From positions 1 through 46,770 of the forward strand of contig DAHUYE010000074.1 of assembly GCA_027315345.1 (NCBI GenBank): 46,770 nucleotides of DNA, given 5' to 3'. A program made the position numbers and the translations under genes. The first letter of the stretch is position 1. Each line of letters begins with the position of its first letter. The DNA is from Actinomycetota bacterium. GTDB taxonomy: Bacteria > Actinomycetota > Acidimicrobiia > Acidimicrobiales > JAJPHE01. Of the stretch, positions 29,440 through 40,014 are shown piece after piece. The notes below the pieces were generated by a model. That model was not told the origin of the DNA, ran no database searches, and saw only the letters and a program-made list of their open reading frames with translations.

Positions 29440-29529
29440 TCGCCATACCGCTGGTCGGCTGCCTCCCGGGCGGGCCGTCTAGAGCCTCGCTAGCTTCGGT
29501 GGACCGTCGAGGGTCTTGGAGGTTTGCCG

Positions 29530-30621
29530 GTGACACAGCCACGGATCGGGCTGCTGTGGCGAGGAGAGAGAGGCGGGGCCGTCTCTCCTCGTGCCGAGGC
29601 GATGTTGGGTCCGCTGCTGAGCGCTTTCGCCGACCAGGGTGTGGCCGCCCGGCACGTGATCTACGCCGATGACGCCGTCGCGGAGGTCCGCTCCGAGCTG
29701 CTGGACCTCGACGGCGTGCTGGTCTGGGTCAACCCCATCCAGGAAGGGGCGACCCGAGCCAAGCTCGACGCCCTGCTGCGCGAGGTCGTAGCCGCCGGCG
29801 TGTGGGTGTCGGCCAGGCCGGACATCATCGACGCCATGGGCACCAAGGAAGTGCTCTTCGAGACCCGAGATCTCGGCTGGGGAACCGACGTCGGGCTCTA
29901 CCGGTCCCCCGAGGAACTCGCCCACGGCTTCCCGGCCCGGCTGGCCGCCAATGGCCGTCTGGTAATCAAGCAGGCCCGGGGCACGGGCGGGACCGGTGTG
30001 TGGCGGGTGGAGCTGCCCGCGGGACCGGGCCGCGAGGTGCCTGGCCGCGACTCAGCGGTTTTGATCCAGCGGGCTGACGCCCGGCGGCCCACTCCCTTTG
30101 AGCCCTCGACTCTGGGGGACTTTCTCGATCGCTGCGATAAGTACTTCGCCTGGTCGGGATCGATCATCGACCAGCCCTTCCAGGAGCGTCTGGAGGAGGG
30201 CATGATCCGGGCTTACTTCGTCCACGACGAGGTCGTGGGCTTCTGTCACCAGTGGCCGAAGGGATTGGTGGTGGCCACCGGAGCCGAGGAGGCCCCCGTA
30301 TCCACCCCGCCGAAGATGGAGGACCCCGATACGCCGGCCTACGCCTCGCTGCGGTCCAAGGCAGACTCGGAGTGGGTGCCAGGGCTCAAGGACCGCCTGG
30401 GCCTCTCCACCCACGACCTTCCGGCCATATGGGACGCCGACTTCCTGTACGGACCCAAGGCGGCCTCCGGCGAAGATACCTACGTCCTGTGCGAGATCAA
30501 CGTCCAAGCCGTCTGGCCGTATCCTCCGCAGGCAAACCCGCGTCTGGCCGAAGCGGTGACGGCGCGAATCTCGGAGGGGCCCCCAGCCGAGCCTCGGGCG
30601 GCACCCTACGATCGCATTTGA
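29530..30621 (+). CDS. Cj0069-family protein, ATP-grasp-like
   Basis: About 363 residues. GTG 29530 has GGAGG 7 bases upstream; a TTG at 29524 is possible. The sequence PRIGLLWRGERG at the start, VLVWVNPIQEGATRAKLDALLREV, then VSARPDIIDAMGTKEVLFETRDLGWG are typical of the Cj0069 family, here cited by parts. The pattern RLVIKQARGTGGTGVWRV looks like an ATP-grasp glycine-rich loop after a lysine, and LCEINVQAVWPYP looks like the metal-binding strand, with Glu and Asn. Such folds ligate a carboxylate to an amine or thiol using ATP, but no reaction is known for this family. The stop overlaps the start of the truncated haemoglobin gene (TGATG), implying a joint function. Confidence 0.75.
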   Translation: MTQPRIGLLWRGERGGAVSPRAEAMLGPLLSAFADQGVAARHVIYADDAVAEVRSELLDLDGVLVWVNPIQEGATRAKLDALLREVVAAGVWVSARPDIIDAMGTKEVLFETRDLGWGTDVGLYRSPEELAHGFPARLAANGRLVIKQARGTGGTGVWRVELPAGPGREVPGRDSAVLIQRADARRPTPFEPSTLGDFLDRCDKYFAWSGSIIDQPFQERLEEGMIRAYFVHDEVVGFCHQWPKGLVVATGAEEAPVSTPPKMEDPDTPAYASLRSKADSEWVPGLKDRLGLSTHDLPAIWDADFLYGPKAASGEDTYVLCEINVQAVWPYPPQANPRLAEAVTARISEGPPAEPRAAPYDRI

Positions 30622-31073
30622 TGAAGCCCACGATCTTCGAGGCGATGGGTGGGTGGGACACGGTTTTGGCCCTGGCTGAGGCCTGGCACCACCGCTGCCT
30701 GGCCGACCCCATACTGGCCCATCCCTTCGAGGGCGGTGTCCACCCACAACACACCGAGCGGCTGGCCGCCTACTGGTCCGAGCAACTGGGCGGACCGGCC
30801 GTCTACACGAACTCGATCGGTGATCATTCCGCCGTCGTCCGGATGCACACCGGGAACGGGCCCCATGAGCAGATGGACGGCCGGGGGGTGGCGGCCTTCG
30901 CTCTCGCCCTCGATGATGTCGGCGTTCCGAGTGACCCGGACCTGAGGTTCCAGCTCATCGCCTGGTTCACCTGGGCCACCGCGCTGCTGAATCACCGATG
31001 GACCAGGCCGGACGATGTGCCCGGCGGCCTTCCCCTTCCCATGTGGGGGTGGGAGGGGACCGAAGGCTGGTAA
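30621..31073 (+). CDS. Truncated haemoglobin, probably group II
   Basis: A 150-residue globin whose ATG overlaps the stop of the Cj0069-family gene. The features are the B-helix-like start TIFEAMGGWDTVLALAEAWHHRCLADPILAHPF (cited by its parts), the E-helix segment HTERLAAYWSEQLGG with His44, and the proximal histidine probably at His76 in VVRMHTGNGP. The C-terminal helix carries the Trp pair LIAWFTWATALL and an aromatic tail ending in WGWEGTEGW. Members of this family bind haem and O2 or NO, and many act in NO detoxification or redox work; the function here is not shown. The coupling with an ATP-grasp-like protein is unusual. Confidence 0.88.
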   Translation: MKPTIFEAMGGWDTVLALAEAWHHRCLADPILAHPFEGGVHPQHTERLAAYWSEQLGGPAVYTNSIGDHSAVVRMHTGNGPHEQMDGRGVAAFALALDDVGVPSDPDLRFQLIAWFTWATALLNHRWTRPDDVPGGLPLPMWGWEGTEGW

Positions 31074-31086
31074 GGGCCAGGGCTCG

Positions 31087-31233
31087 GTCCTGGACGAGCC
31101 CGAGCACGTGGTCGCCCTACCCGGGTCAACCACGGCGGATCACGCCCGGGAGAACGCCCGAGCCTTGAGTGTCGAACTCAGCGCCGACCAGTTCAGCGCC
31201 ATCGACCGCGCCTCCTCGCCCTGCTGGCGGTAG
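31087..31233 (+). pseudogene. Aldo/keto reductase C-terminal relic
   Basis: The frame reads EHVVALPGSTTADHARENA followed by VELSADQFSAIDRAS and a stop, which is the C-terminal signature of aldo/keto reductases (the strand with PG(S/T) that binds the NADPH phosphate, then REN, then ELSADQ). No TIM-barrel core lies upstream: the same frame runs into the haemoglobin gene without reductase similarity. It is therefore a remnant of a deleted gene, squeezed between the globin and SulP genes. Confidence 0.65.
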
Positions 31234-31236
31234 GCC

Positions 31237-32973
31237 TCAGTGGGCCGTCGGCCCGCCGGACTGCCCTACGTCCATGCCCGTGACGGCGGCGTCGACCGAG
31301 GGAAAGAACCGGTCCGGTCCGATGCGCTCCACCAGGCCGGCCCGAGCCAGGCTCTCCCGCATCCGCCCGCCGGCTCTGGCCACGGCAAAGGCGATATGGG
31401 ACCGATCCAGCTGGTCCAGCACCCGCGTCAGGGAGCGGGAGCCCGTGTAATCGATGTCGGTCATCCCGACGGCATCCAGCACGACCAGTCTCGGGCCGCC
31501 GGCGGCGCGCTCCAGGGCCGCCGTCAGCTCCGCTCGGAAGTGAACGGCGTTGGCGTACCACAGGGGGGTGGCGAACAGGACCACCAGCACGCCCGGGAGT
31601 TGGACGGCCTCTTCGGCGCTGGAGAGCGGCGCCCAACTGGTGGTCCCGGTCAGACGTCCCAATACGTGAAGCTGGGGCCGGGCGCTGAGCCTGGTGCGGT
31701 CCAGGATGGCCAGGCCGACAGCGACGGCTATGCCCTGCTCCACGCCCACCACCGCCACCGTGACCAGAGTGACTACCGCCAGACCGAGCTCGAGGCGGTC
31801 GAAGCGGGCGATGGATATGAGGTCCTTGAGATGGAAGATCCGGCTGGCAATGAACAGCAGCACCCCGGCCAGAGCCGCCACGGGGACGTCCTTGAGCAGA
31901 CCGGCGGCCGGTATCAGGAGCACCAGGCCGGCGGCGGCGCCCAGGCCGGCCGCCTGGGTGCCACCCCCGGCCGCCACCACCGCGGCGGTGCGAGGAGGGC
32001 TGGCATCGACAGGGAACGAGCCGATCAGTCCGGCCATGATGTTGCCGGCCCCCACCCCCAGGAAGTCCCGGCTGACGTCCACCTCGTATCCGCCCTGATC
32101 AGCAAAGGCCCGGGTCGTGGCCGCCGACTGGCTCACCACCACCAGCGACACCACGCCGGCCAGGGCCGCCACGCCACGGAGGGCCGGCCAGGACAGCCCG
32201 GCCAGGCCCAACCGGGGAGCGCCGTGGGCGAAGCTCCCCAGCACGTCGACACCATGGGACCGAAGGCCAAAGACCCCCACCACCAGGCCTGAACCGACCA
32301 GGCTGACCAAGGCCCCGGGAACGCGGCGGTCAACCCGCTCGGCCGCCACCACCACGCCCAGCACGGACAATCCGATCCCGACCGACCAACCCTCGGCCCG
32401 ACCCAGATGGGAGAGGACTACGCCCACCCGGTGGGCGGTGGTCCCTCCGACGGCGGGTAGGCCGAGAAGGTCCGGAAGCTGGTGGACGACGATGATCACG
32501 GCCACCCCGGCCAGGAAACCGCTGATGATCGGGGCGGAGAGGAACTCGGCTATCCACCCCAGGCGCAGGATACCGACCAGGCTGACGATCACACCGACGG
32601 TCACGGCCAACAGGCCAGCCAGGTTGATGTACCCGGCTGTACCGGTCGGAGCCAGGTGGGCGATCCCGACCGCGAACAGGGGAGCAATGGTGGAGTCGGC
32701 TCCCACCGACATCTGGGGGTTGGAACCGAGCAGGGCGAACAGGACGCTGCCGGCTATGAAGGCATAGAAGCCGGTTATGGGCGGCATCCCGGCCAGGCGG
32801 GAGGTAGCCAGCTGCTCGGGTACGGCAATGGCGAGCAAGGTGAGGGCGGCCAAAGCGTCGGTCCCGGCCCAGCGGCTCTGGTATCCGTGCAGGGACGAAA
32901 GCACACTCGAACTCAACCGCAGCCAGCGGGAACTCTCCGGCCTGGTGGCACCAGCCATGGGTCTCATCATCAC
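31237..32973 (-). CDS. SulP-family anion transporter with STAS domain
   Basis: The 578-residue protein has a transmembrane part of 10-14 helices (about 25-430) and a C-terminal STAS domain (about 455-565). SulP landmarks include LTLLAIAVPEQLATSRLAGMPPITGFYA, cited as AVPEQLATSRLAGMPP, the VGADSTIAPL segment, and QSAATTRAFADQGGYEVDVSRDFLGVGAGN with its conserved DxSRDF. The STAS domain has the DIDYTGSRSL loop that regulates activity in homologues. SulP proteins move sulfate, bicarbonate or other anions; the substrate cannot be told from sequence, since no carbonic anhydrase or sulfur gene is adjacent. The start is one of several Met codons near 32973 (GTG ATG ATG, then ATG 12 bases further). 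Confidence 0.9.
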   Translation of the reverse strand: MMMRPMAGATRPESSRWLRLSSSVLSSLHGYQSRWAGTDALAALTLLAIAVPEQLATSRLAGMPPITGFYAFIAGSVLFALLGSNPQMSVGADSTIAPLFAVGIAHLAPTGTAGYINLAGLLAVTVGVIVSLVGILRLGWIAEFLSAPIISGFLAGVAVIIVVHQLPDLLGLPAVGGTTAHRVGVVLSHLGRAEGWSVGIGLSVLGVVVAAERVDRRVPGALVSLVGSGLVVGVFGLRSHGVDVLGSFAHGAPRLGLAGLSWPALRGVAALAGVVSLVVVSQSAATTRAFADQGGYEVDVSRDFLGVGAGNIMAGLIGSFPVDASPPRTAAVVAAGGGTQAAGLGAAAGLVLLIPAAGLLKDVPVAALAGVLLFIASRIFHLKDLISIARFDRLELGLAVVTLVTVAVVGVEQGIAVAVGLAILDRTRLSARPQLHVLGRLTGTTSWAPLSSAEEAVQLPGVLVVLFATPLWYANAVHFRAELTAALERAAGGPRLVVLDAVGMTDIDYTGSRSLTRVLDQLDRSHIAFAVARAGGRMRESLARAGLVERIGPDRFFPSVDAAVTGMDVGQSGGPTAH

Positions 32974-33011
32974 CGATCCGAGACCCTTTGGATGGCTCGA
33001 GTGCCGTCGGA

Positions 33012-33164
33012 CTAGTGGCCGGCTTCGAAGTCAGCGATCCGGGCCTTGATGAGTGCTTCCAGAAGAGGGACGGGAGCCAACCGGGCGGCCAGCTTTCCGA
33101 GCACCTGGGAGTGGGCGTGGAGAGTCTCGCAGGTCGGCTCCCACTCCTCGTATGGCAGGGGCCC
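33012..33164 (-). pseudogene. Gene relic resembling the N-terminus of DUF5996 proteins
   Basis: Between two in-frame stops the minus strand encodes 50 residues reading PYEEWEPTCETLHAHSQVLG then KLAARLAP and a helical end. The PYEEWxxTxxTLHxxxQxxGK pattern recalls the N-terminus of DUF5996 proteins. There is no ATG, GTG or TTG in the open frame (only a CTG), and the remaining 200 or more residues of the family are missing. It lies in the 316-base stretch between the GNAT and SulP genes, which otherwise has only the truncated zinc-finger frame below. Confidence 0.4.
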
Positions 33165-33212
33165 CTACCGCTCCGGCACCGGTTCCCGCCGTTCCGGCTC
33201 AGGGCCACCGGC

Positions 33213-33296
33213 TCAGGTCCGCAGGCAGTCCTCGCAGCTCTCACCCGAGGGGGTCAAGTCCACGACCGTGTCCAGATGGGTGCAGACCTCAGCCAT
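33213..33296 (-). pseudogene. Truncated UBP-type zinc finger
   Basis: A 27-codon frame starts at an ATG overlapping the GNAT stop by 8 bases and reads MAEVCTHLDTV followed by CEDCLRT and a TGA stop. This matches the first third of bacterial UBP-type zinc-finger proteins (CxH, then CxxC); the rest of the finger, with its WVHLR, CGHVGCCD and HPI motifs, is not found in any frame downstream. It is probably a deletion product, although translation of the short peptide by coupling is possible. Confidence 0.55.
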
Positions 33297-33630
33297 GCTG
33301 GGAATCGTCCCCAGAGATAGCGGTGGGTGTCTCGCCCGACTCCCAGTCGATCGAAGTACCGGAGACGGCGTCGGGATGGCTTTCCAGCCACTTCCGGGCG
33401 TAGGGACATACGGGCACCAGAAGGAGACCTTCCCGCCGAGCCCGCTCGGCCGCCTCCAATACCAGACGCCCACCGATGCCCCGCCCGCTCAGGGCCTCCG
33501 GCACGCCGGTGTGGACCAGGACCAGACGGCCCCCGTTCCGGCGGTAGACGAGCTCGGCCTCCTCGCCCTCGAGCTCGAGCAGAAAACGGTGGTTGACGGC
33601 ATCGTCGATGATGGCGCTGGTCTCGCTCAC
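33289..33630 (-). CDS. Small GNAT-family N-acetyltransferase
   Basis: The 113-residue protein starts at GTG with AAAGAGG 5 bases upstream. It is a compact, single-domain YjdJ-type acetyltransferase: FLLELEGEEAELVYRR, LVHTGVPEALSGRGIGGRLV with the acetyl-CoA pyrophosphate loop (GRGIGGRL), and LLVPVCPYARKWLESHPD at the C-terminus. These small enzymes use acetyl-CoA; their acceptors are mostly unknown. A polar tail of about 25 residues follows the usual family end. Its stop overlaps the ATG of the truncated zinc-finger frame, a neighbour it would have had before the deletion. Confidence 0.87.
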   Translation of the reverse strand: MSETSAIIDDAVNHRFLLELEGEEAELVYRRNGGRLVLVHTGVPEALSGRGIGGRLVLEAAERARREGLLLVPVCPYARKWLESHPDAVSGTSIDWESGETPTAISGDDSQHG

Positions 33631-33716
33631 GCTGGCCTCTTTCTTACCTCTGGGGCGTTGTACCAGCCTCCACCTGTTGGCTGGGTCTGTCCACTGGGTC
33701 CCATGGGTGGCGGAAC

Positions 33717-35411
33717 TCAGTGGCTCAGCCGGACCGCCTTTACCACCAGCAGAACGGCGCTGACCACCAGGTACGCACGAAGAGAGCTCATTCCCAGCCG
33801 GAGGCCGGGGGACCACCGGACCGGCTGAAGGAGGGTGAGCTGAGGCATCCGCCAGGACATCTTGTCCTCCAGGGTCATGGGAGCCACCGGCACCCGACCG
33901 TCGGGACTGGAACGGATCCGGACGTAGGCCAGGCCGGCTCCTCCCAACACGACCATGGCCCCGGACAACTCGATGAACAGACTGGTCACGTTCAAGCCGG
34001 GGAACAGGGTGGTGGCCATGAGGACCCCGGACAACACCAGGAGGACGGCGATGATGAGGCTGGCCAGGGCGTTCAACCATGTCTTGTTGACCCAGGGCCC
34101 GAGTACCTCAGGGTCGTTGCACAGCAGCAGTAGGAAGACACTGGCGCTGGGCAGGAGCAGACCGGCCAGGGCCTGGACACTGGTGGTGATTAGTCCGAGG
34201 GGCGCTCCCGGTATGAGTACCACCGCCCCGGCCAGGACGACCATGGCGGTGTAGCTGCCGTAGAACTTCTTGGCATCCCGGAAGCTGCGGTGCAGGGAGT
34301 GACGCATGTTGAAAACGTCACCGAAGGCGTAGGAAGTGGCCAGGGTCACCGCCACCGCCCCCACTATGGCCGCGTCCAACAGGGCGATGGCGAAGAGCGT
34401 TCCCAAGGCGTGGCCCATGTGAGCCAGCCCCCTGGCCACGCCGAGGGCGTCGCTGAACTGTCCGTGTAAGGGGCTGTCCCGGAAGGCGTAATTGGCGGCG
34501 ATCATCAGTGCCGCCGCCCCGATCACCACCACCACCGAGCCCAGGGCGGTGTCGGCCCGCTCGTAGTTGATGAAGCGGGGAGTTATGCGCTTGTCGATGA
34601 CGTTGGACTGCTGGAAGAACAGCTGCCAGGGGGCCACCGTGGTCCCGACTATGGCGATGATCAGCAGCACCCCGGCGGAGCTGATCCCACCCTGAAGGCC
34701 AGGCACGAAGAAGTCGTGGGCCACCCGGCTCCATTGCGGATGGGAGAGCAGGGCCATGGGGTAGAGGATCAGGCTGACGGCGATGAAGGCCAGCATGGCC
34801 GTCTCGAAGCGCCGGAAACTGCCGCTGGCGGTGATGGCCACCAGCAGGACAGCCGCCAGGGGCACGGCTATGTAGTGGCTGACCCCGAAGTAGTCCGCGG
34901 CCAGAGCGACCCCGATGAATTCGGTGACGATGGTCAGGAAGTTGAGAATGAACAGGTCCCCCACGCTGAATGCGCCCCAGAAGCGCCCGAAGCGTTCGTT
35001 GATCAGGCGGGCGTGTCCCACTCCGGTCACGGTGCCCAGCCGTACCACCATCTCCTGGTTGACGATCAGGACGGGGATCAGGAGCAACAGAACCCACAAG
35101 AGGCTGGTCCCGTAGTTCTGGCCCGCCTGGGCATAGGTGGCGACCCCGCCGGCGTCGTTGTCACCGACCATGACGATGAGGCCGGGGCCGATGATGGCCA
35201 GCAGGGTGAGCAGTCGCTGCCGACGGCTGCGCCGGTCGGTGGCATCTCCCAGCCGGATGCGGCCGAGAGCTCCCTCGATGTCTCCGACGTGGGCACTGTC
35301 GAGCACGGCCGGGGCGCGCCGATCCGAGGGGTGGCCCAGCTGTGCGGGCGCGGCGGGCTGTCCGCCGGTGTGCCCCCCGAGGGGGCCACCGGCGCGGGTT
35401 GACTCGTTCAC
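33717..35411 (-). CDS. NRAMP-like divalent metal transporter
   Basis: The 564-residue protein has a 60-residue polar N-terminus, then about 11-12 membrane helices. TM1 reads IGPGLIVMVGDNDAGG, and TM6 reads IVGTTVAPWQLFFQQS. In classical Mn/Fe NRAMP proteins these segments carry DPGN and MPHN, whose Asp, Asn and Met bind the metal. Here they are DAGG (86-89) and APWQ (260-263): the Asp is kept but the Asn and the soft-ligand Met are gone. This fits NRAMP-related carriers that prefer harder ions, such as magnesium, better than a MntH. The GTG start overlaps the stop of the MgtE-N/CBS gene by 4 bases (GTGA), which supports the magnesium idea. The transported ion is an inference. Confidence 0.9.
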   Translation of the reverse strand: MNESTRAGGPLGGHTGGQPAAPAQLGHPSDRRAPAVLDSAHVGDIEGALGRIRLGDATDRRSRRQRLLTLLAIIGPGLIVMVGDNDAGGVATYAQAGQNYGTSLLWVLLLLIPVLIVNQEMVVRLGTVTGVGHARLINERFGRFWGAFSVGDLFILNFLTIVTEFIGVALAADYFGVSHYIAVPLAAVLLVAITASGSFRRFETAMLAFIAVSLILYPMALLSHPQWSRVAHDFFVPGLQGGISSAGVLLIIAIVGTTVAPWQLFFQQSNVIDKRITPRFINYERADTALGSVVVVIGAAALMIAANYAFRDSPLHGQFSDALGVARGLAHMGHALGTLFAIALLDAAIVGAVAVTLATSYAFGDVFNMRHSLHRSFRDAKKFYGSYTAMVVLAGAVVLIPGAPLGLITTSVQALAGLLLPSASVFLLLLCNDPEVLGPWVNKTWLNALASLIIAVLLVLSGVLMATTLFPGLNVTSLFIELSGAMVVLGGAGLAYVRIRSSPDGRVPVAPMTLEDKMSWRMPQLTLLQPVRWSPGLRLGMSSLRAYLVVSAVLLVVKAVRLSH

Positions 35412-36712
35412 GCCTGTTCTTCTGCTCTCAGCTGGAGGTCCTGGGCATCAGGTTTGGGGCGATCGGACGTAGCCGCCCCCTCTTCCCGTCGGCGCCAGTC
35501 CTCGGGGATGGTCACCTCGAGGACGTCATCCACCGTGACCACGCCCAGGAGCACCCCGTCATCGTCGATGACCGGCATCGTGGTCAGGTTGTAGTCGGCC
35601 ATCCGGATGGCCACCTCGGTCAAGTCGGCCTCGGGATGCACGTGGACCGGCTCGGGTTCGGCCAACTGGGCCAGCTGGGTGGAGGAGTCGGCTTTGAGCA
35701 GGGTCTGGAGGGTGATGGAGCCGTTGAGCGTCCCCGATTCGGTGACATAGACCGCGGCCAGAACCTCTTGGGGGATCTGGGCGTCGGCGTCGTGGACGCC
35801 ACGCAGGGCAGCCGCCACCGTGGTGTCCCCCGGCAGGGCCAGGAAGTCGGGGTTCATGAGGCCGCCCGCCGTGGAGGGATTGAAGCCCAGCAGGCTGCGG
35901 ACCTTGGCCTGGTGCGAGGCGGGGAGGAGGCTCAGTACGGTGAGGCGCCGGCGCTGGGGCAGGTCGGCTATGAGGTCGGCGCCGTCATCGGAACGCATGT
36001 GGGTCAGCATCTCGGCTATCTCGGCGTCGGCCCGGTCCTTGAGCACCTCAACCTGTCGCTCGGCTTCCATCTCCTCGAAGACGTCTGCCTCCAGCTCGAT
36101 GTCGGCGTGCACGGCGGAAAGGATCTCCGCCGTCTCCTGGCGGTCGGCCTCCTCGATGAGATCGGCTATCTGTGCCGGCCGGAGACGTCGAAGACGCGAC
36201 AAAGGGTTGCGGGCCCCCGCGCTCCCGGCGTGGCCGATCAGAGCTTCGAACTCCGACCAGTCCCGGGCCTCACCGGCCTGGCTGGTGCCTGGGCCGCCCG
36301 GAAGCAGCCGGGACAATCGGCGCCGGCCCCGGGTGTCGATCCGAACCAGCCTCCAGCCACCATCCAGTTCCTCGAGCTCCAGGTCGTAGGCACGTACCAG
36401 CCGGCCCCGGGGAACGTCGATCAGGCGATGGCCCAGGACGTCCGAGCGGAGCAGCACCTCCCCGTCGCGCCGCTCGAACGGCCTGACGTCGATCCGGGCC
36501 GTGGTCAGCCGTATCTCGCTGGATAGAGTCGCCACTATCCCTATGTTGACGTAGAGCAGGCGTCCGCCGACCTTGGCCACCAGTCCGCTGACAGCGGGGT
36601 AATGGCCCCGCTCCGGAAGGGTCACGATCACATCGGAAAGCTTGCCCAGCCGCTGCCCGTCGGCGGCCAGAATCGGCCGGCCCAGAACCTCGGAGAGTTG
36701 TGCCCGGCCCAT
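35408..36712 (-). CDS. Soluble PRC-barrel, MgtE N-domain and CBS-pair protein
   Basis: A 434-residue protein without membrane helices. Residues about 5-135 form one or two PRC-barrel-like beta units (LSEVLGRPILAADGQRLGKL by parts). Residues 175-285 match the MgtE intracellular N domain, a helical superhelix recognised by LRPAQIADLIEE, EEMEAERQVEVL and MRSDDGADLIADLP, and the STAGGLM hinge. Two CBS domains follow (about 285-345 and 352-402, with MADYNLTTMPVIDDDGVLLG and VVTVDDVLE). In MgtE channels this same N-CBS part senses cytosolic magnesium and gates the pore; here the pore domain is absent. Translational coupling to the NRAMP-like gene suggests it acts on that permease in trans. Confidence 0.9.
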   Translation of the reverse strand: MGRAQLSEVLGRPILAADGQRLGKLSDVIVTLPERGHYPAVSGLVAKVGGRLLYVNIGIVATLSSEIRLTTARIDVRPFERRDGEVLLRSDVLGHRLIDVPRGRLVRAYDLELEELDGGWRLVRIDTRGRRRLSRLLPGGPGTSQAGEARDWSEFEALIGHAGSAGARNPLSRLRRLRPAQIADLIEEADRQETAEILSAVHADIELEADVFEEMEAERQVEVLKDRADAEIAEMLTHMRSDDGADLIADLPQRRRLTVLSLLPASHQAKVRSLLGFNPSTAGGLMNPDFLALPGDTTVAAALRGVHDADAQIPQEVLAAVYVTESGTLNGSITLQTLLKADSSTQLAQLAEPEPVHVHPEADLTEVAIRMADYNLTTMPVIDDDGVLLGVVTVDDVLEVTIPEDWRRREEGAATSDRPKPDAQDLQLRAEEQA

Positions 36713-36718
36713 GGCGGC

Positions 36719-36724
36719 AGGCTA
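36719..36724 (-). promoter_or_regulatory. -10-like element TAGCCT for the MgtE-N/CBS gene
   Basis: On the minus strand TAGCCT ends 6 bases before the ATG at 36712, as for a leaderless mRNA. It is part of the palindrome GGCTATAGCC (36720-36729). Confidence 0.5.
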
Positions 36725-36797
36725 TAGCCAGACGCCTGGTTATCGGGGCCCGGCCTCGCCTCAGCCCATACCCATCCAGGAGCGCCGATTAGCTGGT

Positions 36798-36813
36798 TAT
36801 GACGTCGGTCACA
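36798..36813. promoter_or_regulatory. CRP-like site TATGA-N6-TCACA
   Basis: The plus strand has TATGA CGTCGG TCACA, one mismatch from the CRP consensus TGTGA-N6-TCACA. It lies in the divergent region, 85 bases from the MgtE-N/CBS start and 102 bases from the start of the cNMP-binding protein. Whether a CRP-type activator binds is an inference. Confidence 0.4.
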
Positions 36814-36840
36814 CTGGTCCTCCTCGAGGATGAGGGCACA

Positions 36841-36858
36841 ATCGACCCCGGGGTCGAT
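36841..36858. promoter_or_regulatory. Perfect 18-bp palindrome ATCGACCCCGGGGTCGAT
   Basis: A perfect 18-bp palindrome in the 203-base divergent region between the MgtE-N/CBS and cNMP-binding genes. Its length makes chance unlikely compared with the shorter palindromes in the window. It may be a dimeric operator for one or both genes. Confidence 0.55.
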
Positions 36859-36903
36859 GCCGAATGAGCCCGTAGCCCGATGCCTGATCGGACGGACGCG
36901 GCT

Positions 36904-36909
36904 TACCGT
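36904..36909 (+). promoter_or_regulatory. -10-like element TACCGT
   Basis: TACCGT ends 6 bases before the ATG at 36916 of the cNMP-binding protein gene, the spacing of a leaderless mRNA; no Shine-Dalgarno sequence is present. Confidence 0.5.
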
Positions 36910-36915
36910 CCCGGT

Positions 36916-37362
36916 ATGAGAACCAAGAACCAGTCAAAGGTCGAAACCGTCAGAGCCTTGACCGAGTTTTCCGGCTGCAGCCAGAAGGAGTTGATCGACC
37001 TGACCAGCCAGGCCGATGAGATCGACTTTCTCCCTGGCTCGGTGCTGATCCATGAAGGCGCCCGGGCCGAGGAGGCATTCCTCATCCTTTCCGGCCAGGT
37101 CTCCGTCCGGCTCTGCGGGGCGGTCATTTCCACCGCCGGGGCGGGAGAGACGGTGGGGGAGATGGCTCTGCTCGACCGGGCGCCCCGTTCGGCCACGGTG
37201 GTGGCCGAGACCCCGGTGCGGGCCCTGGTCTTCGGGCGCCGCCAGTTCGGAGGGCTCATCGATCAGGCCGGCCCGGCCCGGGCGGTGTCAGCGATCCTGG
37301 CCCGGCGTCTCCGGACCGCCAATGAGGAAAGGCTCACGACTCCGCTCACGCCGGTGGCCTGA
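36916..37362 (+). CDS. Single-domain cyclic nucleotide-binding protein
   Basis: The 148-residue protein is almost entirely one cNMP-binding beta-barrel. The phosphate-binding cassette is visible as GEMALLDRAPRSA (81-93), with Glu82 and Arg91 in the positions that contact the ribose and cyclic phosphate in CRP-type proteins. An N-terminal helix precedes it, and a C-terminal helix ends it; there is no DNA-binding or catalytic domain. It therefore probably works as a partner or sensor subunit for another protein. The ATG at 36916 has a leaderless promoter signature; the frame is open to 36880. It is divergent from the MgtE-N/CBS gene and 31 bases ahead of a membrane protein gene. Confidence 0.85.
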   Translation: MRTKNQSKVETVRALTEFSGCSQKELIDLTSQADEIDFLPGSVLIHEGARAEEAFLILSGQVSVRLCGAVISTAGAGETVGEMALLDRAPRSATVVAETPVRALVFGRRQFGGLIDQAGPARAVSAILARRLRTANEERLTTPLTPVA

Positions 37363-37393
37363 ACCGGCGCAGCGGTCTGGGCATGATGGCCCC

Positions 37394-39007
37394 TTGACCG
37401 CGGCGTCCGTTCCCCAGGCCGATCTGCGCCGCCCCCCATCGTCCGCCGATACTGCGCGGCGTCCCACCGCCCGCCGGGCCCGAGCCGGCCGGGAGTGGTT
37501 CTGGGCCGCCTTGGCCGCCCTGCCCTACGCCGCGGTGGCCTTTGGGTGCCTGTTGGCCAGAGGCGCCACCTATGTCCAGGGCGATCTGGCCCTCCTCGAC
37601 GTCGACGCCGTGCGGGCGGGCCGGTTCCAGCAGTTGCTCGGCCCCTATGACCGCTTCGGCTGGCACCACCTCGGACCGGCCTACGCCTATCTGGTGGCGG
37701 CGGCGGGATGGCTGGTCGGCGCTGAGCGTCCCCTCCAGGCCGAGGCCCTGACCGCCGCCGTGATCAATGGCGCCGCCCTGGCCGGCGCGGCGCTGGTGGC
37801 CAGGCGGGTGTTCGGACCGGGTGCGGCCGTCGGGGTACTGGTGGCCGGGGCCGGCCTCATCGTCTCTCTCGGCAACGACGCCGTGTTCAACCCATGGCCC
37901 CCGGTGGTGGTGGTCGTGCCTCTCCTGCTTCTGGGGGTTCTGACCCTGGCCGTGCTGACCGGCGGTTCGACCACGCTGTTGACCGCCGGCGTGGTGGTGG
38001 GGAGCTTCTGCGTGCAGACCGATCTCGGCACGGCCCCCTATGTGATCGCCCTGGTCGTCCTGGCCGGAGTCGGATGGGCCTGGCGCCGGCGTCGTGGATC
38101 CGGGGCCCAGGTCGGCCCGCTGGTCGCGGTGATGCTGGCCCTGATCGTCCTGGCCTGGACGCCGGTCGTCATCCAGCAGATCACGGCCCGGCGGGGAAAC
38201 CTCTCCCTCGTCTACGACTTCTTCCGCTCCGCCCACGGCCATGCCGGTCTGGCCGCCGGGCTGCGGGCGGCCGGCTGGGCCCAGCTGGCTTTCTTCGGCC
38301 ACCGGCCCCCGGGCGGACCGCCGGTGGGCTGGACCGGGACGGCGGCGGTTCTGGTGGCCCTGGTCCTGGCTGCCGCCCTGCTCGTGGCCGGCCGGTGGCG
38401 GGGGCGCCCGGTCGTGGTCGGGGCGGCTGTCCTCTGGATGGGCGGCACCCTGGTGGCCACTGCGGCCGGGGCCGAGATAGTCGGGCCGGCCTACTCCTAC
38501 CTCACCATCTGGGCGGTGGCGCCGCTGGCCGTCGGCGTCCTGGGCCTGACCGCCCTTTTGGCCGGCACCGGTCCGATTCGACCGGGCCGGCTCGAGCTGC
38601 CGGTGGCCCTGGCTCTGGCGGTGTCGCTGGCGGTCACCGGGGATGTCCTGAGCCGCCGGGCCGTGTCCGGTTACTCGGCTTCGGCCGTCGGCCGGGCCTG
38701 GGCCTTGGTGGCGCCCGCACTGACCGGGCCGGCGGCCGTCGGGGTCGCCTACGCCAACGAGGGCGAGTCCTGGAACATCGGAACCGGCCTGGTCGATCAG
38801 CTGGAGCGGTCGCACCACCAGGTGGCCGTTCTGGCCTTCTGGTCCAATCAGGTGACCGACACCGCCAGCGGGGCTGTGCCGGTCTGGGTGAACGTGCTCG
38901 GTCCCGGCCTGTCCGTGACCCCCGGCCAGCGCTATCTGGGCACCGTCGACGGCCGCCGGCTGGTGCTGGCGGCCCACCCTTTGGTGCCCGCCGACGCCAA
39001 CTATTGA
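37394..39007 (+). CDS. Polytopic membrane protein, glycosyltransferase-like layout
   Basis: About 537 residues with at least ten hydrophobic segments and an extracytoplasmic C-terminal region of about 110 residues. The first loop contains DLALLDVDAVRAGRFQQLLGPYDRFGWHHLGP, which has acidic residues after the first helix, like the catalytic Asp of GT-C glycosyltransferases; I cite DLALLDVDAV and YDRFGWHHLGP as the key parts. No family was identified with certainty. The start is a guess: the TTG at 37394 is the first reasonable codon after the cNMP gene, and the frame is open back to 37052 inside that gene. The two genes are probably co-transcribed. Confidence 0.6.
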   Translation: MTAASVPQADLRRPPSSADTARRPTARRARAGREWFWAALAALPYAAVAFGCLLARGATYVQGDLALLDVDAVRAGRFQQLLGPYDRFGWHHLGPAYAYLVAAAGWLVGAERPLQAEALTAAVINGAALAGAALVARRVFGPGAAVGVLVAGAGLIVSLGNDAVFNPWPPVVVVVPLLLLGVLTLAVLTGGSTTLLTAGVVVGSFCVQTDLGTAPYVIALVVLAGVGWAWRRRRGSGAQVGPLVAVMLALIVLAWTPVVIQQITARRGNLSLVYDFFRSAHGHAGLAAGLRAAGWAQLAFFGHRPPGGPPVGWTGTAAVLVALVLAAALLVAGRWRGRPVVVGAAVLWMGGTLVATAAGAEIVGPAYSYLTIWAVAPLAVGVLGLTALLAGTGPIRPGRLELPVALALAVSLAVTGDVLSRRAVSGYSASAVGRAWALVAPALTGPAAVGVAYANEGESWNIGTGLVDQLERSHHQVAVLAFWSNQVTDTASGAVPVWVNVLGPGLSVTPGQRYLGTVDGRRLVLAAHPLVPADANY

Positions 39008-39255
39008 CCGATGGGGAGGGGGCTGGCCAGGAACAGGGCGGCGGTGACGATCTTCTCCGGTCGGCCCGGTGACCCAAGCTGGAGAGCTTCGGGCCCATCG
39101 TGTTGGACCTGATGACCCGGGCCCCCGAGTTGGCCGAATTGCGCGGCTTCGGCCGCTGAATAGCCGGGGCCAGGGGAGTTCGGGCAAGCTCAGGGGCCGC
39201 CCGACACGGAAAGCCGCCATCGAGGCGGCTCCAGGCGCAGGAAGGGGACAGCGGA
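39008..39255. other. Intergenic region with a short gene-like frame
   Basis: This 248-base gap holds a 27-codon plus-strand frame (39079-39159) with amphipathic composition, reading LESFGPIVLDLMTR and PELAELRGFGR before a stop. It has an in-frame TGA just upstream and no usual start, so it is either a relic or chance. AGGAAGGGGA near 39240 serves the following SDR gene. Confidence 0.3.
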
Positions 39256-40014
39256 GTGGAAATCCCGGGTAAGAAGGCCGTCATCGTGGGAGGGGCGTCG
39301 GGCATGGCCCGGGCCACGGCCGAGATGCTGCACCAGAAGGGCGCCTCGGTGGCCATCCTCGACCTCCCCGGTTCAGCCGGCCCGGAGGTGGCCGAGTCGC
39401 TGAAGGGCACCTTCCATCCGGTGGACGTGACCGACGCGGCCGGCACCGAGTCCGCCCTGGCCGATGCCGTGGCCGCCCTCGGCGGGCTGCATGTTGCCGT
39501 CAACACCGCCGGGGGAGGGACGGCGGCGCGAACCCTGAGCAAGAGCGGTCCGCATCCGCTGGACGAGTTCCGCCGGGTGATCGAACTCAACCTGATCGCC
39601 ACCTTCAACCTCAACCGGCTCCAGGCCGCCCACATGGCTGCCAATGATCCCGAGGATGATGAGCGGGGCGTGATCATCGACACGTCTTCCATCGCCGCCT
39701 TCGAGGGCCAGATCGGGCAGGTTGCCTACACCGCCGCCAAGGCGGGAATGGCGGGCATGACCCTGACCATGGCCCGGGACCTCGGCAGTCTGGGCATCCG
39801 GGTGATGGCCATCGCCCCCAGCCTGTTCAGCACCGGTATCACCAAGGGGATACCCGATGAGTTCGCCCAGGCCCTGACCCGGGACGCCGCCTTCCCCAAG
39901 CGGATGGGTCGGCCCGAGGAGTACGCCCGCCTGGCCGTGGCCATCGTGGAGAACCCGATGCTCAACGGTTCCACCATCCGCCTCGACGCCGGCCAACGCT
40001 TCGCCCCGAAGTAG
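39256..40014 (+). CDS. Short-chain dehydrogenase/reductase (3-hydroxyacyl-CoA dehydrogenase type II-like)
   Basis: The 252-residue classical SDR starts at GTG, with AGGAAGGGG 6-7 bases upstream. The NAD-binding motif is GGASGMA (12-18), an aspartate at the end of strand two (AILDLPG, Asp36) suggests NAD rather than NADP, and NTAGGG follows. The active site is Ser144 or Ser145, Tyr158 and Lys162 (YTAAK). The C-terminal segment IAPSLFSTGIT and the whole length match the 17-beta-HSD10/type II 3-hydroxyacyl-CoA dehydrogenase group, which oxidises 3-hydroxyacyl-CoA or hydroxysteroids. Position 31 bases before a fused acyl-CoA dehydrogenase supports a beta-oxidation role; the substrate is unknown. 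Confidence 0.92.
   Translation: MEIPGKKAVIVGGASGMARATAEMLHQKGASVAILDLPGSAGPEVAESLKGTFHPVDVTDAAGTESALADAVAALGGLHVAVNTAGGGTAARTLSKSGPHPLDEFRRVIELNLIATFNLNRLQAAHMAANDPEDDERGVIIDTSSIAAFEGQIGQVAYTAAKAGMAGMTLTMARDLGSLGIRVMAIAPSLFSTGITKGIPDEFAQALTRDAAFPKRMGRPEEYARLAVAIVENPMLNGSTIRLDAGQRFAPK

Follow-up and report, generated by a model that had tools for sequence, protein, structure and literature searches.

The NRAMP-related magnesium transporters (NrmT) were defined by Shin et al. 2014, who found an adjacent MgtE N-domain gene in most members and who speculated that the MgtE-like protein exerts cytoplasmic feedback in trans, with a chaperone role named as the alternative (PMC4072509). The pairing and the notion of feedback in trans are therefore not new. 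In the same study the NrmT of C. acetobutylicum complemented alone, without a sensor, while the sensor-linked NrmT of Acidobacterium capsulatum behaved as a Mn2+ transporter, restoring a mutant in Mn2+ transport but a Mg2+ mutant only weakly, the sensor having no effect on the rescue phenotype when the A. capsulatum pair was co-expressed (PMC4072509). No later paper settling the role of the sensor was found in a literature search outside which most subscription journals lay. EleNRMT from Eggerthella lenta (7qia) is distinguished by an Asn to Gly change in TM1, by Met to Ala and Ala to Thr changes in TM6 and by the loss of the TM6b histidines, and it is active in proteoliposomes without a sensor and moves Mn2+ as well (PMC8806188). 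The sensor module in turn has its counterpart in the MgtE Mg2+ channel (2yvx, 2zy9), and the roles of TtMgtE residues in Mg2+ sites are here taken from PMC5882242.

The window, by which we mean the whole analysed stretch of 46,770 nucleotides, contains the same pair as the operons of PMC4072509, in that an NrmT gene is found directly beside the gene of a homologue of the MgtE cytoplasmic N-domain. The features of the pair are as follows.

33717-35411, minus strand: NRAMP-related Mg2+ transporter of the NrmT type, predicted, 564 aa (Pfam Nramp, E 2.9e-79)
34626-34643, minus strand: TM6 metal-site motif T257-T-V-A260-P-W262, aligned to T224..A227-P-W229 of EleNRMT (canonical A-T-x-M-P-H)
35145-35156, minus strand: TM1 metal-site motif D86-A-G-G89, aligned to D55-A-G-G58 of EleNRMT (MntH has DPGN)
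35408-35411, minus strand: GTGA overlap, made up of the sensor stop TGA (35410-35408) and the NRAMP start GTG (35411-35409)
35408-36712, minus strand: free-standing MgtE-type sensor, 434 aa, with PRC barrel, MgtE_N and CBS pair and no transmembrane domain
35486-35506, minus strand: P-x-x-W-R-R-R motif at the sensor C-terminus, residues 403-409, at the place of the MgtE plug helix
35513-35860, minus strand: CBS pair of the sensor, about residues 285-400 (Pfam, two CBS, E 6.6e-17)
35876-36184, minus strand: MgtE_N domain of the sensor, residues 177-279 (Pfam E 5.9e-19)
36533-36703, minus strand: PRC-barrel domain of the sensor, residues 4-60 (Pfam PF05239, E 2.6e-7)

An earlier note on this DNA had described an NRAMP-like gene that starts within the stop codon of a soluble protein made of PRC barrel, MgtE N and two CBS domains, and both observations hold, since the GTGA overlap is present and the Pfam domains match, with no Pfam match to the MgtE transmembrane domain (PF01769) in the sensor, which ends after CBS2. 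The best PDB relatives of the sensor are likewise MgtE cytosolic domains (2yvy/2oux). A GTG at codon 36 provides an alternative NRAMP start, which would shorten the protein and leave the linkage to the sensor unaffected; GTG1 is nevertheless plausible, since relatives begin a similar distance, some 10-40 residues, ahead of a conserved V-L-D-x-A-H-x-G-D-I segment. Around the pair, a small protein comprising scarcely more than a cyclic-nucleotide-binding domain (36880-37362, plus strand) is encoded divergently from the sensor gene, a small GCN5-related acetyltransferase-like protein (PF14542; 33289-33633) and a SulP/STAS anion transporter (31237-32973) follow downstream on the same, minus strand, and a 365-aa protein with a DUF6815 domain is found at 29524-30621 on the plus strand.

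The label NRAMP-like given in the earlier note agrees with the Pfam match but is too general, for the gene belongs to the NrmT (Mg2+) branch. Among solved structures, that of the Mg2+ transporter EleNRMT is closest by sequence (7qia, E 7e-60), with the second-best NRAMP at 5e-21, and every diagnostic change of EleNRMT is found in the window carrier (D86-A-G-G89, T257, A260, W262 and Q267). In TM1 the Asp of DPGN is kept and the Asn is replaced by Gly, the binding-site signature is identical in the alignment of the two proteins, and the proton-pathway histidines are lost in both, with Q267 in the window at the TM6b position where EleNRMT has Asn. In a maximum-likelihood tree built from 83 NRAMP rows, the window carrier and EleNRMT fall into one 51-row clade (support 100/99), with canonical MntH outside. 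A reading of the gene as canonical SLC11/MntH (Mn2+) is ruled out by the DAGG/APW metal site and by the tree, and judged from its sequence we can conclude that the product would by family be an NrmT-type Mg2+ carrier. It differs from EleNRMT in having an extra C-terminal region, with 564 aa as compared to 438 in the structure. Carriers with a deviant D-P-A-G motif in TM1 and without a full sensor also occur in the clade (L091, L107 and L108), and in L108 a truncated PRC–MgtE_N reading frame is found immediately upstream of the carrier.

Like the MgtE channel, the window sensor combines MgtE_N with a CBS pair and has equivalents of D91, D95 and D247, but it lacks the plug helix and the pore (GTGGN, D432) and has an added PRC barrel. 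In its MgtE_N domain D91 and D95 of TtMgtE are retained and an Asp is found at the E59 position, and in the CBS pair D247 is kept, while D250 is replaced by Glu and D226 by Asn. Across the NrmT-linked sensors, 76 of 78 keep D91, 77 of 78 have D or E at the D95 position, 76 of 78 at that of E59 and 74 of 78 at that of D250, while D247 is kept in all 78. D247 must however be discounted as a specific sign of Mg2+ sensing and is weak evidence for it, since it is also the ordinary aspartate of the CBS T-x-x-D motif, and the fact that D226, an Mg5 ligand, is mostly Asn in NrmT-linked sensors, that of the window included, counts against a Mg2+ sensing reading. The informative Mg2+-site positions are those of the N domain, where the acidic residues are conserved.

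The genome of the window (97.7% complete) has a single NRAMP gene and one CNNM protein, and no match to an MgtE pore, CorA or an MgtA-type ATPase was detectable in it. The case that the earlier note had named as damaging to its proposal, an MgtE pore gene elsewhere that is the true partner of the soluble sensor, was thus searched for in the genome and not encountered. Among genomes of the same order, both CorA and MgtE are missing from 7 of 8 that have the pair, and from 3 of 9 that have no NRAMP at all. NrmT looks like the main candidate Mg2+ importer of the window's genome, which therefore makes a good test case. An M-box Mg2+ riboswitch precedes the operon in six relatives (L043, L046, L047, L048, L050 and L062) and often stands at the head of the nrmT operons of PMC4072509, whereas riboswitch control of the window pair was considered and set aside, no Rfam match with E up to 1 being found within 30000-40000. 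The window further differs from those operons in that its genome shows none of CorA, MgtE and MgtA and that its sensor has an explicit PRC barrel.

A search for the pair across the phylum had been called for in the earlier note, and the linkage indeed turned out to be conserved in relatives. When 246 genomes of the phylum were searched for Nramp and MgtE_N and 80 NRAMP loci were then checked for adjacent sensors, a sensor gene was found to adjoin 38 of 50 sampled NrmT-clade NRAMP genes and none of the 30 outside the clade (Fisher 2e-12, uncorrected for relatedness), and on the tree the linked label changes 8 times as compared to 27.7 times for shuffled labels. L062, L064, L138 and L150 have the two genes in reversed order, and in L032 they are convergent, so the linkage is retained through rearrangement. 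No full sensor adjoins the other twelve sampled genes of the NrmT clade. Four of these (L096-L099) come from genomes that encode a long MgtE-like protein of the same type at an unlinked site, and one (L090) is truncated by the end of its contig, where some sensor sequence is still visible; the real exceptions include L089, in which no NrmT-type sensor is in view. Direct fusions of NRAMP and sensor were not seen among the sampled loci, and a 1030-aa reading frame in L125 as well as other long frames in GC-rich loci proved to be shadow frames or other genes. One 10-kb contig (L136) carries two sensor and two NRAMP genes on opposite strands, and in some families a third, small PRC-barrel protein of about 200 aa follows nrmT (L057, 5270-5965, minus strand; L098, 7151-7765, plus strand; also L061, L065, L068, L096, L097 and L099).

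The forms taken by the partner of NrmT make up a graded series. Several lineages have an MgtE-like protein of full length (600-680 aa), which in L057 even clears the NCBIfam MgtE cut-off. The GTGGN pore motif and the equivalent of the pore aspartate D432 are however lost in all 16 NrmT-linked MgtE-like proteins examined, whereas two genuine MgtE controls retain both, and to judge by these residues such partners are preserved sensors with a dead channel, placed beside a carrier. The partner found in the group nearest to EleNRMT carries a single membrane helix at its C-terminus (L052). That of the window and of most relatives is a soluble protein, in which the place of the MgtE plug helix is taken by a terminal P-x-x-W-[KR]-[KR]-R. 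An NrmT-specific docking signal was considered for this ending and rejected, since the P-x-x-W-R motif is common to the soluble sensors found beside NrmT and beside DUF1003, and it is therefore a mark of the soluble form rather than of partnership with NrmT. Two related genomes among 18 of one order, finally, have the same PRC–MgtE_N–CBS module (residues 2-411) joined in one chain to a Mg2+ P-type ATPase of the MgtA type (residues 435-1316; TIGR01524 1077-1099 bits, cut-off 611):

L122, 4090-8043, minus strand: 1317-aa single chain of sensor and ATPase
L123, 3978-7931, minus strand: 1317-aa single chain of sensor and ATPase

The likeness to the window lies in the joining of the module to a Mg2+ transporter, and the differences in that the fusion is a single chain, that its transporter has an unrelated fold and that it is confined to these two closely related genomes.

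The soluble sensor is moreover not exclusive to NRAMP, since it also sits beside the membrane protein DUF1003. In a further set of 80 named loci (L132-L211), taken from genomes of Actinomycetota, Chloroflexota and Dormibacterota, the sensor adjoins NRAMP in 39 and DUF1003, in most cases together with Mrp, in 36, and in none of the 80 are NRAMP and DUF1003 both found within 2.5 kb of it. DUF1003 beside a soluble sensor, often with Mrp next to it, was seen in L113-L120 and L124-L128 as well. The literature search described above, with most subscription journals outside it, returned no magnesium link of DUF1003 in titles or abstract openings, and within the same bounds no earlier report of pore-dead MgtE partners, of the MgtA fusion or of the DUF1003 alternative was found.

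Two pairs from relatives were modelled with AlphaFold as tethered chains, in which the single in-frame stop between the genes was read as glycine (one supporting row of the alignment had two stops). The L047 model, with the sensor preceding NrmT and five paired rows among 62, reached a pLDDT of 88.7 and a pTM of 0.74, low confidence being almost confined to a junction of about 45 residues, and its halves match EleNRMT (TM 0.88) and the MgtE cytosolic domain (TM 0.81-0.90). As we estimate that two independently oriented halves would give a pTM of about 0.5, some relative placement appears to be predicted, although this is a global score for a single cognate pair, and the model is suggestive of an association of sensor and NrmT. 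The L138 model, in which NrmT precedes the sensor, gave a pTM of 0.54, with the PRC part misaligned and poorly modelled and sensor segments misplaced in alignments A2 and A4, so that this score speaks neither for nor against an association.

The reading that we favour, with moderate confidence, is that the sensor exerts Mg2+-dependent control in trans over NrmT within a Mg2+ uptake system of two components. In the membrane, an NrmT carrier would import Mg2+, and probably Mn2+ too, without proton coupling; its soluble partner would be what is left of an MgtE channel after loss of the pore, namely the cytoplasmic sensor, and would contact NrmT physically such that uptake is inhibited by Mg2+. 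The layout of the genes, the family assignment by sequence, the conservation of the linkage and that of the Mg2+-site residues of the N domain are observed, while the metal, the direction of the effect, the contact and the inhibition are inferred. Against such control speak the activity of NrmT without the sensor, the null result of the A. capsulatum co-expression and the 12 clade genes lacking a full adjacent sensor, and against a role specific to NrmT that DUF1003 is about as frequent a neighbour of soluble sensors. Another conceivable reading, though an unlikely one, is that the carrier chiefly imports Mn2+ and that the detached module responds to Mn2+ or to the general status of divalent ions, the pair forming a manganese system. 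The stronger rescue of the Mn2+ mutant by the A. capsulatum NrmT (PMC4072509), the Mn2+ transport by EleNRMT (PMC8806188) and the fact that the window NrmT is the only NRAMP of its genome all agree with this, but the carrier site has no soft methionine and matches EleNRMT in the complete Mg2+-type signature, no further classical Mg2+ importer was detectable in the genome, and M-box riboswitches, which are Mg2+ sensors, head the operons of several relatives.

We consider it equally improbable that the sensor is a general magnesium-status protein acting elsewhere, on DUF1003, a protease or translation, and merely co-expressed with NrmT. The occurrence of the same architecture and P-x-x-W-R motif beside DUF1003 and not NRAMP in 36 of the 80 named loci would fit such a protein, as would the ability of NrmT to work alone (PMC4072509); that NRAMP and DUF1003 were never seen together within 2.5 kb suggests, however, alternative partners and not one common target, and the linkage to NrmT survives changes of order and orientation, while the MgtE-like proteins beside NrmT retain a membrane part but no pore. 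PRC barrels and CBS pairs are also common protein-docking and nucleotide-binding modules, and they could accordingly serve in a factor for assembly, stability or metal handover of NrmT, as opposed to a Mg2+-dependent brake. This would correspond to the chaperone alternative named by Shin et al. (PMC4072509), but it seems very unlikely, since the conservation of acidic residues at the N-domain Mg2+ sites of MgtE argues for selection on the sensing property itself.

Taken together, gating in trans appears to be the best reading of the pair, and the comparative evidence, with relatives that kept the sensor of a channel but not its pore and others in which the sensor is joined to a pump, makes a detachable regulator more probable. 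The two-part transporter with an MgtE-type sensor acting on an NRAMP-type carrier, as proposed in the earlier note, finds partial support, in that the linkage is conserved, no MgtE pore is detectable and the carrier is of the NrmT type, but the idea dates from 2014 and the sensor is found beside DUF1003 too. A wider and more tentative notion, towards which we do not yet lean, is that PRC–MgtE_N–CBS is an exchangeable magnesium governor, attached in MgtE, acting in trans on NrmT, partly by way of pore-dead MgtE regulatory subunits, fused in the Mg2+ P-type ATPase and possibly also serving DUF1003, and if this were true the DUF1003 membrane proteins might be a new magnesium-related family. How NrmT is regulated has been a standing question since 2014, when the ancillary MgtE-like gene was first described. 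If the sensor does act in trans, an allosteric module would have left its channel and found a new use with a carrier whose fold is unrelated, the steps of which are made testable by the surviving intermediates, namely the pore-dead MgtE proteins, the one-helix anchors, the soluble forms and the pump fusion.
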